Origin: Desulfurivibrio sp. | GTDB lineage: Bacteria > Desulfobacterota > Desulfobulbia > Desulfobulbales > Desulfurivibrionaceae | Direction: 5' to 3' | NCBI GenBank assembly: GCA_013791995.1 | Contig: VMSS01000149.1 | Span: forward strand, 1-44,390 | Length of the DNA: 44,390 nucleotides | Part shown: piece by piece, positions 3,518 to 40,989 of the stretch | Layout: every line of letters begins with the position of its first letter | Position numbering within the stretch: position 1 is the stretch's first letter | The notes under the pieces: model-generated | Databases searched by the model: none | The model's input: only the letters and a program-made list of their open reading frames with translations | Told to the model about the DNA's origin: nothing | Made by a program: the position numbers and the translations under genes

Positions 3518-3570
3518 TGACGTTGCACGACCCAACGGTGGAATATCAAAATGTTACGTTACGTTACGTT

Positions 3571-3596
3571 CCGTTCGCCCTGAGCCTGTCGAAGGG
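3571..3596 (+). repeat. REP-like unit CCGTTCGCCCTGAGCCTGTCGAAGGG
   Basis: Same motif family as at 14764-14966, 32403-32480 and 37118-37276; preceded by short tandem ACGTT repeats. Confidence 0.8.
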
Positions 3597-3616
3597 CCGT
3601 TATTACAGTTCCACCA

Positions 3617-8381: not shown

Positions 8382-9557
8382 TCAGGAAGCAATTGCCGCC
8401 ACTTGCACGGTTTGCCGAGCCTGACTTGCGCTGAACACCGTTTCCACTCCCTCAAGAAGCCCCAATGCACCAAGACGTTTCACGTTGGCGTTGCCCCTGC
8501 CCCTATAGATGGACTCGTCCGCCTTGGCAAGCGTAAGGCGATGGGGCTGATGGAGGCGGCGGGAGGAAAGCTTGGCCCGGACCTGATTGAAAAAAATCCG
8601 GGAAAGCACCAGCTCGCCGAATGCCGGATGGTATGGCCCGGCCAGCACGGTTTTTTCCAATGAAGCCGAAGGTTGCAATCCCATGCGCACCACGGGGATG
8701 TTGTGCGCCTTGAAAATCAGCCACAACCGACCGGCCATGGCCACGGCCCGATTCAGGCTCAGAGGCTGATACTGCCCCTGATGATACAGTTCCGCCAGAG
8801 GACTGCCGGAGATAACCAGACAGGGATAGAGCCGCACCATATCAGGCTCCAGATCTGCAGCCTGACGGCCGCTGGCCAAGGCTGTGACTGTGTTGTCGCC
8901 GGGCAGGCCGAGCATGAGTTGCAGTCCGACCTGGAGGCCCTCTTCTTTCAGACAGGCCACCGCCGCCTTAACCTGGGCCGCAGTATGCCCCCTGCCGCTT
9001 GCAGCCAGCACGCGATCATCCAGCGACTGGGCGCCCAGCTCCACAATCCCGACCCCATGCTCCCGCAAAAACAGGGCGATTTCAGGGGTTACGTAATCCG
9101 GGCGGGTGGAGAGCCGTATTTCCCGAACCTGTCCCGTTGCCAGAAAAGGCTGCACCGCGCCGAGCAATTCCCGTTGCCGCTCCAGATCAAGGCCGGTGAA
9201 GCTGCCGCCGTAAAAGGCCACCTGAACCGGCGCGGTGGGATAGCGGCGGGGCCAGGCAAGTTGGGTGCGGATGGTCTCCTGCACCGCTTGGGCAGTGACC
9301 ATGCCCTCCGAAGCACCGGTGATGCTGCGCTGGTTACAAAACAGACATTGATGGGGACAGCCCTGATGGGCAATGAAGATTGGGATGACAAAGGGCGGCG
9401 ACTTTGGCAAGCGATCACAGGGCACGACATCTGCTTTGTTATCAGCCTGTTCGCATACGGATGTATGGCTCTCAGGCCTCTGCCGCGCATCTGTCGCACC
9501 CTGTAATCGCTTACAGGTTAGAATAGAGTTTTTGGCGGAATAATCAGTTACAGACAT
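8382..9557 (-). CDS. Radical SAM protein (Elp3/HemN-like fold)
   Basis: IPIFIAHQGCPHQCLFCNQRSITG (CxxxCxxC), FYGGSFTGL, RLSTRPDYV, GAQSLDDRVL; start codon uncertain. Confidence 0.8.
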   Translation of the reverse strand: MSVTDYSAKNSILTCKRLQGATDARQRPESHTSVCEQADNKADVVPCDRLPKSPPFVIPIFIAHQGCPHQCLFCNQRSITGASEGMVTAQAVQETIRTQLAWPRRYPTAPVQVAFYGGSFTGLDLERQRELLGAVQPFLATGQVREIRLSTRPDYVTPEIALFLREHGVGIVELGAQSLDDRVLAASGRGHTAAQVKAAVACLKEEGLQVGLQLMLGLPGDNTVTALASGRQAADLEPDMVRLYPCLVISGSPLAELYHQGQYQPLSLNRAVAMAGRLWLIFKAHNIPVVRMGLQPSASLEKTVLAGPYHPAFGELVLSRIFFNQVRAKLSSRRLHQPHRLTLAKADESIYRGRGNANVKRLGALGLLEGVETVFSASQARQTVQVAAIAS

Positions 9558-10656: not shown

Positions 10657-10744
10657 GCGCAAAAATCCCACTCCCCGGCCAATCCAAAGTACAAGCCAAG
10701 TGCCCTTCCTGAACTCACCGTCCTGAAAGATCAAATTCCTTGTG

Positions 10745-10885
10745 TTGCTCCTTGTTGTCAGGTAGACAGATAATATTCCGGATATTTTTTAGCCGTTATT
10801 ATATAGCTTGCTATATAACACCCCCATATGGGGTGGATATGTAGCTATTCAAGAACAAAAACGCTCAAAAATCCCCACTCAGGGC
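10745..10885 (+). repeat. ~140-bp dispersed repeat, copy A
   Basis: Shares TGTCAGGTAGACAGATAA (10756-10773), AACACCCCCATATGGGGTGGATAT (10817-10840) and GCTATTCAAG (10844-10853) with 38875-39014 at nearly identical spacing. Confidence 0.85.
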
Positions 10886-10906
10886 AACCAAGAATCGGAG
10901 TTCTAA

Positions 10907-11281
10907 ATGAAACTTGATGAATTCGTCAAAGAGGTTCTTACTGAAATCATCTCCGGGATTCGCAGTGCTCAAGAGGCTGACGGTGGTGCCTTTATCGTAC
11001 CTAGCGGTGATGGTGGTCATGATTACGCAAAACACCCCCGTGTCTCATCTAGTGCTCGTATAAAGTCAACAATTGTTGATTTCGATATTGCGCTGACGGT
11101 TGAGGAATCCAGCAAGGGTTCGGGAGGAGGTGGCCTAAAGGTGTTTGGTATGGGGGCGAACGTACAAGGAGAGCTATCCTCAAAAGACACAACAGTAAGC
11201 CGCATTCAGTTTGCAATCCCTCTCCTATTACCTGAGAGCCAAAGGAAATGGCATGAAGAACTTAAAAAAGGCTCAGAATAA
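10907..11281 (+). CDS. Trypco2-like (trypsin-co-occurring domain) protein; putative gene-cassette ORF
   Basis: MKLDEFVKEVLTEIISGIRSAQEA...STIVDFDIALTVEESSKGSGGGGLKVFGMGANVQGELSSKDTTVSRIQFAIPLLLP; stop codon abuts an attC-like site. Confidence 0.6.
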   Translation: MKLDEFVKEVLTEIISGIRSAQEADGGAFIVPSGDGGHDYAKHPRVSSSARIKSTIVDFDIALTVEESSKGSGGGGLKVFGMGANVQGELSSKDTTVSRIQFAIPLLLPESQRKWHEELKKGSE

Positions 11282-11283
11282 AT

Positions 11284-11355
11284 TGCCCAACAATGCGCTC
11301 GTGCGGGACGCTACGCCACGTTGCGGCTTGCGCCCCACAGCTTAGGCGTTGGGCA
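11284..11355 (+). mobile_element. Integron attC recombination site (attC-like)
   Basis: TGCCCAACAATGCGCTCGTGCGGGACGC...GCGCCCCACAGCTTAGGCGTTGGGCA: R''/R' arms TGCCCAAC/GTTGGGCA, core GTTGGGC (GTTRRRY), imperfect inner arms; immediately 3' of a small ORF. Confidence 0.85.
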
Positions 11356-14763: not shown

Positions 14764-14966
14764 GCTTCGACAGGCTCAGCATGAACGGAAGATACATTCA
14801 TTTATAACAGCAGCCCTCCGTTCTGAGCGAAATATCCATGCATTTGCAAGAGCATCCCTCCGTTATGTGCGGAATATCCATGCATTTTGACACCTTCCGA
14901 TAGCCCTGAGCGGAATATCCAGTCATTTACGATAACTCCGTTCGCCCTGAGCCTGTCGAAGGGTCG
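14764..14966. repeat. REP-like cluster with degenerate ~42-bp GGAATATCCATGCATTT units
   Basis: CTTCGACAGGCTCAGCATGAACGG (14765) and inverted CCGTTCGCCCTGAGCCTGTCGAAGGG (14938), with three (CCGTT)CTGAGCGRAATATCCATGCATTT-like units between. Confidence 0.8.
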
Positions 14967-15030
14967 CTGTTAGGGCCGCTTGTTCCGCATTCGCTACAAA
15001 TGACACATCCCAGACCACGAAACAATGCCC

Positions 15031-16640: not shown

Positions 16641-16654
16641 TCAGCCCCCCTGAT

Positions 16655-16783
16655 AACTGTCCGGCAGCACCACACCTGCCTCGCAGTCTCGCTCTGCGCT
16701 CGCTTAGCTGTCATCGGACCGCTCATGTGCAAAAGCACATTTCGCAGGCCTCTTCCTCGCATCTGTGGTGCTGCTGAACAGTT
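16655..16783 (-). repeat. Palindromic dispersed element, copy 2
   Basis: Terminal inverted repeats AACTGTCCGGCAGCACCACA (16655-16674) and TGTGGTGCTGCTGAACAGTT (16764-16783), 18/20 matching; homologous to 1118-1245; bracketed by TCATTCAGCCCCCCTG at 16637-16652 and 16810-16825. Confidence 0.88.
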
Positions 16784-32402: not shown

Positions 32403-32480
32403 CTTGCCGAAAGGCTCAGCACGAACGGAATTGAATACGATACAGAAATTTTCCGTTCACCCTGAGCCTGTCGAAGGGTC
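32403..32480. repeat. Inverted pair of REP-like units
   Basis: CCGAAAGGCTCAGCACGAACGGAA and CCGTTCACCCTGAGCCTGTCGAAGGGT facing each other. Confidence 0.8.
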
Positions 32481-32550
32481 GTTTTGGCGATCCCTCAACG
32501 AGATCAACCAAACCCCATCCCGCCCTTTCCACAACCAGTGCATATAACAC

Positions 32551-37041: not shown

Positions 37042-37117
37042 GATCTTTGGTCCGGAGCTTGGCGCAGAGGCAAGGGCAAGCACGAATGGATCGCCCCAGC
37101 ACAACAATTACATTATA

Positions 37118-37276
37118 CCGTTCGGCCTGAGCCCGTCGAAAGCCAACAGAGCACATTATACCGTTCAGCCTGAGCCTGTCGAAGGCCAACAGAGCACATT
37201 AATCCGTTCGGACTGAGCCTGTCGAAGGCCCACAATAGCATGGGAACCACGGTTCGACAGGCTCACCGCGAACGAA
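37118..37276. repeat. Three direct ~42-bp REP-bearing units plus one inverted unit
   Basis: Repeats of CAACAGAGCACATTATACCGTTCAGCCTGAGCCTGTCGAAGGC, then GGTTCGACAGGCTCACCGCGAACG in opposite orientation. Confidence 0.85.
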
Positions 37277-38706: not shown

Positions 38707-38874
38707 GGATATGCTCCCTTGTTGGTTGAGATGATTTCCGCACAGCATACAAGGATGGCAGGAATAAAAGAAGTAAAGATTTGCCTTGAATAGCTCTGCC
38801 GATCAGGACTCTTCCCGCACATTCCCAGACCTCGTTTATTTCCCCCAACCGGGTGGAAATAATATATTCTTGAA

Positions 38875-39014
38875 TTGCTCCATGGTGTCAGGTAGACAGA
38901 TAACTTCCCGATCATTTTTAGCCGGAATTATATCGCTAGCTACAGAACACCCCCATATGGGGTGGATATATGGCTATTCAAGTGAAAAGGTGTTCAAAAC
39001 TTGCCCAGAAAAAG
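38875..39014 (+). repeat. ~140-bp dispersed repeat, copy B
   Basis: TGTCAGGTAGACAGATAA (38886-38903), AACACCCCCATATGGGGTGGATAT (38946-38969), GCTATTCAAG (38973-38982), shared with copy A. Confidence 0.85.
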
Positions 39015-39095
39015 CAATTAAAGGCCCAAAAACCGAAAAAAACAAACAACTCGAGCTAGCTCGATACTACTATTATTATAAACCAAAATTAAATT

Positions 39096-39692
39096 ATGAA
39101 ATGTCTCATTGTGACAACTCACCCACTCTCAAAATGTCTTTGCAAGCTATTGACCGAGCATGTTGTCAATAGGCTAACTGCAATGAAACATGAAGTTGTA
39201 ATTGAAGACCTATATGCTGACAAATTTGAACCATTATTAACCGAATCAGAACGAAACTCTTATTATAGTGGTTCTTATGACTCTTCAAATTTTTCTGAGC
39301 AGGCCAATAGGCTATTAGAAGCAGAGGCTCTTGTTCTACTTTTTCCAACTTGGTGGTTCAGCTTTCCGGCCATGCTTAAAGGTTGGTTTGATCGAGTTTG
39401 GGGACCTGGCATTGCCTACGATCACGCAAGTGATCTTGGCCCAATCAAATCTCGATTAGATAATTTACGGAAAGTGTTAGTAGTAACAACGTTGGGGGCA
39501 CCTTGGTGGGTGGATAGACTGATAATGTGGCAACCAGTAAAAAGAGTTGTAAAGGTTGCGTTATTAGGAGCATGCGCAAAAAAAAGTAAACTGAAATATC
39601 TATCACTCTACAACAGTGAAAAACTCAACAATGAGAGTATCGCCAGATTTAAACACAAAATTGACAAAGCTCTCAATGATTGGGGAGAGTAA
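39096..39692 (+). CDS. Flavodoxin-fold NAD(P)H dehydrogenase (quinone)-like protein; putative cassette ORF
   Basis: MKCLIVTTHPLSKCLCKLLTEHV...LLEAEALVLLFPTWWFSFPAMLKGWFDRVWGPGIAY. Confidence 0.85.
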   Translation: MKCLIVTTHPLSKCLCKLLTEHVVNRLTAMKHEVVIEDLYADKFEPLLTESERNSYYSGSYDSSNFSEQANRLLEAEALVLLFPTWWFSFPAMLKGWFDRVWGPGIAYDHASDLGPIKSRLDNLRKVLVVTTLGAPWWVDRLIMWQPVKRVVKVALLGACAKKSKLKYLSLYNSEKLNNESIARFKHKIDKALNDWGE

Positions 39693-39695
39693 TGT

Positions 39696-39721
39696 TTATA
39701 ACAAATCGCTTAACTTGACCG
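39696..39721 (+). mobile_element. 5' portion of an attC-like site, interrupted
   Basis: TTATAACAAATCGCTTAACTTGACCG directly after the stop codon, resembling R''-L'' of long attC sites; then the IS end begins. Confidence 0.55.
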
Positions 39722-39911
39722 TGAACCTCCCCCGGTTTAGTGGACATAAAAGTCTAGCTAAACCGGAGGTAAAAAAATGCCCAGGTACAACAACCCGAAG
39801 AAAACCAGACGATACTCAACGGAATTCAAGATCAAAGCGGTACAACTTAGCCACCTGGATAACGTACAAGTCAAAGTATGTAGCAAAAACAAAGGAAGAG
39901 TGAAAGCATGA
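39722..39911 (+). mobile_element. IS3-family remnant (left end plus truncated orfA)
   Basis: TGAACCTCCCCCGGTTTAGTGGACA terminus and MPRYNNPKKTRRYSTEFKIKAVQLSHLDNVQVKV OrfA N-terminus; no remaining transposase downstream. Confidence 0.75.
39777..39911 (+). pseudogene. Truncated IS3-family transposase OrfA (about 44 codons)
   Basis: Transposase-8-like N-terminus (RRYSTEFKIKAVQL) that loses similarity and stops at 39909-39911. Confidence 0.7.
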
Positions 39912-40656: not shown

Positions 40657-40989
40657 ATGAAGGAGTTCTCGGAAATAATCCTGACGTTGACCATATTGGT
40701 TTTTGGGATATTTTTGCCTATGAATGTCATGTCGGCGCAGCAGGAGAGCAGTATTGTCATGCTGAAATCAAAAATGAGCACAGCCACTGTACCTCCCGGT
40801 AATCCGGATGACGCTCCACCTCCCGGTAATCCAGACGATGCTCCGCCTCCGGGTAATCCCGATGACGCCCCTCCCGGCAACCCGGACGATGCCCCGCCAC
40901 CGGGTAATCCAGATGATGCTCCGCCTCCGGGCAATCCGGATGATGCTCCCCCCGGCAACCCGGACGATGCCCCGCCACCACCCCAATAA
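40657..40989 (+). CDS. Small secreted PPGNPDDAP-repeat protein
   Basis: Signal-peptide-like N-terminus (MKEFSEIILTLTILVFGIFLPMNVMSAQQ) then seven PPGNPDDA(P) repeats. Confidence 0.65.
   Translation: MKEFSEIILTLTILVFGIFLPMNVMSAQQESSIVMLKSKMSTATVPPGNPDDAPPPGNPDDAPPPGNPDDAPPGNPDDAPPPGNPDDAPPPGNPDDAPPGNPDDAPPPPQ

Follow-up and report, generated by a model that had tools for sequence, protein, structure and literature searches.

Two unrelated genes in the window analysed here, a stretch of 44,390 nucleotides that forms contig C133 of a 2.96 Mb draft genome (G000), are each preceded by a copy of the same repeat. This repeat is very probably the attI region of an integron, joined to a stub of the integrase gene intI and receiving gene cassettes, where our high confidence refers to this identity alone. 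We demonstrate the homology of the repeat to intI and attI, the crossover point at its end, the matching junctions of the cassettes behind it and the conservation of its sites with a turnover of their content. Copies of the repeat occupy about a dozen separate positions in the chromosome in a little-known genus of the Desulfobulbales, and the repeat stays fixed while the cassettes change.

Identity of the repeat and structure of the two modules

The consensus element, derived from an alignment of about 40 copies over 212 positions, is about 212 nt long. Its upstream end corresponds to the first codons of intI, read in antisense, and its 3' end is a sharp edge at the IntI crossover point, G^TTRRRY. 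The copies, here called heads, terminate in ...GCTAGCTCGATAATATTATTG^TT; in the alignment they agree through G(TT) and diverge beyond it (CTCGAGCTAGCTCGATAATA....TG, TT, then unrelated sequence), and the open reading frame mostly starts within a few tens of bases past the TT. Within sites and within genomes, the core (positions 186-205) is conserved to about 92% and the linker (131-185) to about 62-67%.

On contig C9 of G015, an intact IntI of 410 amino acids is encoded (TIGR02249, 434.9 bits at a cut-off of 265; the one stop flagged in it is the termination codon of the gene itself), and the start codons of its gene continue into the repeat in antisense orientation (MEHYKQFILSRRLVTEKKAPYFLAWVKR...); the contig stops inside the repeat, and the first cassette there is out of view. 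In a tblastn search, this IntI matched about 27 copies at their upstream edge, both modules of the window included, through its N-terminal codons only. Outside this contig the homology to intI is limited to the first about 9-45 codons and nearly every copy is orphaned. An attI beside a divergently oriented intI was seen once, on G015:C9, and the remaining copies with a readable flank have the stub alone. Related intact intI genes in four genomes (G006:C28, G016:C74, G009:C322 and G144:C1) adjoin similar attI ends, ..GATAATAATATAG|TT, with divergence immediately past the TT. We identify the repeat as an attI head with an intI stub because of its continuity with intI in G015, the N-terminal matches and the similar attI ends beside related integrases.

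Homology between the two copies in the window, repeat A at 10739-10891 and repeat B at 38869-39078, is evident from 80-81% identity across ungapped blocks (BLASTN E 1.4e-30), and the features of both modules are listed in Table 1. The first-pass annotation had described a layout of repeat, ORF and attC occurring twice in the window, and both the homology of the repeats and the attC evidence at each module bear this out. Unlike repeat B, which is a complete element, repeat A ends at position 153 of the 212-nt element and its attI core (positions about 186-212) is deleted, so that Module 1 has a genuine attC behind a repeat that has lost its core; the close relative G002 retains the full site at the equivalent position (L071). 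Both modules consist of one ORF followed by attC, as in a gene cassette, with a complete attC in Module 1 and the first core only in Module 2. Neither is a complete integron, as both have N-terminal intI stubs only and the intI genes of this genome are located on contigs C43 and C119. A simple scan limited to the sigma-70 consensus found no cassette promoter on the + strand of either repeat, and a promoter may nonetheless be present.

Table 1. Features of the two modules in the window
Feature	Position	Strand	Evidence
Module 1 intI stub (Site 4), about 25 recognisable N-terminal codons, degenerate, start codon lost	10679..10789	-	tblastn with G015 IntI, 51% over 37 aa, E 1.2e-4
Repeat A, leader part of attI, element positions 1-153 of 212	10739..10891	+	nhmmer and alignment
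Module 1 cassette ORF, 124 aa, weakly Trypco2-like	10907..11281	+	Pfam E 0.0025, under gathering score
Module 1 attC	11285..11354	+	GCCCAAC...GTTGGGC, R''/R' 7/7 core pairing, folded, 3 nt after ORF stop
Module 2 intI stub (Site 1) of about 9 codons, with its start codon read as CAT on + (38881-38883)	38857..38922	-	tblastn 59% over 22 aa, E 0.001
Repeat B, attI region, core CTCGAGCTAGCTCGATACTACTATTA, crossover after 39075	38869..39075	+	alignment of about 40 copies; junction test
Module 2 cassette: 5' junction TTATAA, ORF 39096-39692, first attC core TTATAAC 39696-39702	39076..39702	+	exact junction/R'' match; Pfam (Flavodoxin_2, E 2.7e-30)
IS3-type left-end remnant, cuts Module 2 attC, right limit approximate	39722..39875	+	sequence reading and comparison; also in G002 behind another cassette

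Other repetitive features were observed in the window. A dispersed family of REP-like palindromes, CCGTTCGCCCTGAGCCTGTCGAAGGG, is located at 3570-3605, 14937-14972, 32452-32487 and 37110-37238, and far-apart long inverted repeats of 32-49 nt with 83-86% complementarity are located at 1118-1246, 9445-9493 and 16654-16783. A short ORF composed of 24-27-nt repeats that encode PPGNPDDAP units, with a signal-like N-terminus ahead, is situated at 40657-40989.

Cassette junctions and cassette contents

When a cassette is integrated, the bases that follow the G of attI come from the cassette's own attC, and these bases should therefore complement the first core of the attC situated downstream of the ORF. 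An exact prediction of the first attC core after the first ORF from the six bases that follow the terminal G was obtained in 18 of 28 copies, as compared with a mean of 1.3 and a maximum of 8 in 3000 shuffles. If one mismatch was allowed, the match extended to 20 of the 28 copies (mean 6.8 and maximum 14 in 3000 shuffles). The test left out one locus with an IS91-like insertion (L082) and one empty head (L076); two more (L063 and L058) fell outside it through the limit set on the ORF start, and by eye the former is within one mismatch and the latter exact. Module 2 is among the 18 exact matches: its first core, TTATAAC (39696-39702), exactly complements A^TTATAA (39075-39081), the junction on the 5' side of this ORF, and its attC is interrupted about 25 nt in by the left end of an IS3-type element at 39722. 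What had been noted as an attC-like start at 39696 is thus genuine and cut by an IS.

Among the 28 copies that retain a core and have readable DNA downstream, an independent attC search identified a strict attC after the first ORF in 16, as compared with 38 of 489 control ORFs (7.8%; binomial p 2e-11). The first-pass annotation had named two outcomes that would speak against its reading, a lack of attC sites behind most copies and a failure of the 39696 sequence as an attC. Instead, the share of copies followed by an attC far exceeds that of the control ORFs, and the junction test confirms the sequence at 39696. The suggested check of whether each copy is followed by an ORF and an attC gave a strict attC behind the first ORF in 16 copies and none in the other 12. 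Since 10 of the 28 copies have no exact junction match and 12 have no strict attC after the first ORF, some of the platforms are decayed or hold other insertions. Two attC sites are present at L063, L058 and L059, and one at most loci.

We also considered L082 in G009 as a cassette, and rejected it because its sequence indicates an IS91-like insertion that carries a recombinase. This locus and L081 in G023 are 99.7% identical over the flank and attI although the genomes belong to different genera, for which contamination is a possible explanation, and the IS91-like element with its recombinase is situated exactly after the attI GTT in one of the pair.

According to Pfam, the cassette products include TIR, SIR2-like, DUF4062, FRG and DUF3800 proteins, a methyltransferase and a flavodoxin-like protein. 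We take TIR, SIR2-like and other cassette genes found here to be of types that are often seen in phage defence. One of the cassettes at Site 1 (in G001) has a 52% homologue that is the first cassette behind intI in G011.

Fixed sites, changing cassettes and missing integrases

In its own genome, the window is accompanied by three further long copies of the repeat (on C64, C181 and C132, the last of which is cut by the contig end) and by a divergent 5' half (C55). A BLASTN search of 147 relatives identified the repeat in 13 of the 17 genus members, own genome included, in one other member of the family and in one other member of the order; most of the genomes compared are draft MAGs. Scanning GTDB genomes for exact matches to the 3' core recovered 16 stretches, all from MAGs labelled Desulfobulbaceae, Deltaproteobacteria or Proteobacteria, and an exact search for the attI core in viral contigs gave no match.

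Six sites are common to at least two species, as judged by the upstream flanking genes, and the downstream genes differ at each of them. Site 1, which holds Module 2, is found in ten species, G004 included, and Site 4, which holds Module 1 and follows a tRNA-Cys gene, has a head in four species and the stub only in G016. The comparison of G000 and G002 is particularly close, with flanks that are about 93% identical and cassettes that differ at three sites. At Site 1, their heads align unbroken to the core, the ORFs differ, and the same IS remnant and a nitroreductase gene follow. Empty sites were sought in the relatives, as had been suggested, and the Site 1 heads in G010 (L076) and G005 (L087) look empty, while G008, G009 and G012 have no head at this site. 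For the left limit of the element, the empty-site alignment was informative only at Site 1 in G016, which agrees with G000 up to CCAACCGGGT. Similarity among the repeat copies follows the site for the most part, and there are signs that copies of one genome have been homogenised. The differences in the first cassette between species could also come from losses out of a longer ancestral array.

Several loci have arrangements of their own. The IS3-type left-end remnant (39722-39875; L073 in the relative) comes after the initial portion of an attC-like site that differs between G000 and G002, the IS junction having remained unchanged while the cassettes were exchanged. In G007, all six heads are located inside 0.54 Mb of a 2.8 Mb contig, and Site 1 (L061, G007:C1:221500-233500) has tandem heads about 560 bp apart, one of which is truncated. 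Site 1 in G004 (L151) has a compact attI whose two palindromic core motifs are joined in one, as though a deletion between direct repeats had removed what separated them; GTTAGGC and an ORF still come next.

An IntI scoring above the cut-off was identified in 9 of the 17 genus members, but the type that belongs to the attI of the heads was identified only in G015 and G006. The intI of this clade is absent from most of the head-carrying genomes, including the assemblies of G000 and G002; the two integrases of the window genome share about 40-47% identity with the G015 IntI, and their attI differs. G007 (3 contigs) and G010 (99% complete), both of which have heads, yielded no IntI above the cut-off.

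Origin of the heads and relation to known systems

We infer that truncated heads, consisting of at most about 45 intI codons, the leader and attI, dispersed from one ancestral integron and were served in trans, and we favour a version in which many of them are now decaying. The heads would have been scattered to about a dozen sites, at several of these before the species of the genus diverged, and would then have stayed put. An IntI-family tyrosine recombinase would insert circular attC cassettes into each head at its G^TT, giving one or a few cassettes at a site, with cassettes being gained and lost at the same site across species. A separate intI locus may have supplied the integrase in trans; alternatively, every head may once have had an intI of its own that was lost. 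That integrases serve the heads in trans at the present day is a tentative proposal, to which we give clearly less than an even chance. Equally tentative is the idea of a distributed integron, in which one integrase would load several scattered attI platforms in trans and cassettes would land and be expressed at multiple fixed sites, not in one array.

The most serious competitor, which we judge to fall only somewhat short of even, is ordinary decay, whereby several complete integrons would each have lost intI independently and the heads would be CALIN-like fossils with nothing acting in trans. CALINs are regarded as degraded integrons (PMC9024848), many of the genomes have no IntI at all, and the integrase copy in G006 (L110) breaks off near codon 30, where the contig ends in sequence resembling the end of an IS, which would be one route to an orphaned head. 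However, every stub ends within about 45 codons of the start of a 410-codon gene, a uniformity that independent deletions are not expected to give and that argues against a separate loss of intI at each site, and the cassette differences between G000 and G002 at three sites are found with no same-clade IntI in either assembly.

It is less likely that the head is a small MITE-like mobile element that has carried attI to new sites, for example by means of an IS or a transposase in trans. Such mobility would agree with the presence of several copies in one genome, whose left limits are similar, the tandem heads in G007 and a second copy in G015 that has a 45-codon stub and 98% identity. Yet terminal inverted repeats and target duplications were not seen in the aligned flanks, where the pre-insertion sites are not alignable, the left limits differ by tens of nucleotides, and the grouping of copies by site suggests that any movement is old and not current.

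Two further explanations are highly improbable. A repeat that formed part of each cassette as its promoter or leader and moved with the gene, as the first-pass annotation had allowed, would explain why it precedes unrelated ORFs, but it lies outside the cassette as defined by attC, the junction test places the cassette start at the G^TT after the repeat in most copies, and the repeat remains with the upstream flank at common sites when the ORF changes. A structured RNA or regulatory leader unconnected with integrons is suggested by a hairpin (CACCCC...GGGGTG) that is conserved within the middle block, but this block has almost no covariation, an Rfam search matched neither repeat A nor repeat B and detected only a tRNA, and the repeat is directly continuous with intI. 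The alternative of an attI-like landing site, which was also on the original list of ways in which the repeat could belong to the acquisition unit, is the right one, as supported by the crossover at the repeat end, the matching attC cores and the intact intI adjoining it in G015.

Dispersed truncated heads, as favoured here, can be compared with several known arrangements. Secondary attG sites are short dispersed consensus sites at which IntI mediates insertion outside the integron; the loci described here would share such insertion, but have a 212-nt homologous head with intI codons at each locus. With sedentary chromosomal integrons they share the type of attI sequence, the G^TTRRRY crossover, the attC cassettes and the start of intI beside attI, but intI is here a stub and there are several attI per genome, whereas integrons typically have one attI close to the integrase (PMC9024848, PMC3607928). 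Like CALINs, they have attC cassettes without an adjacent intI, but each locus retains attI and the intI stub, often with a single cassette. The definition of a CALIN relies on attC sites only, of which IntegronFinder 2 requires at least two by default (PMC9024848), and many of the loci described here would therefore be missed under default settings. The closest positional parallel is in Xanthomonas, where CALINs occur at seven conserved chromosomal loci away from intI (PMC12444791); an attI or intI remnant is not reported in the accessible part of that account, whereas the attI head here offers a reason for the fixed positions.

The components found here are known, but scattered attI platforms at conserved loci without intI appear to be undescribed in the open-licence literature, which held no relevant description of orphan or multiple attI sites, an absence that is weak evidence.

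The usual descriptions of integrons assume a single attI beside intI. Conserved heads that retain attI but have no intI would account for the fixed positions of cassette loci that lack an integrase, and they would provide a way to find such loci, since current tools look for attC and intI. They would also permit a direct test of integrases acting in trans.
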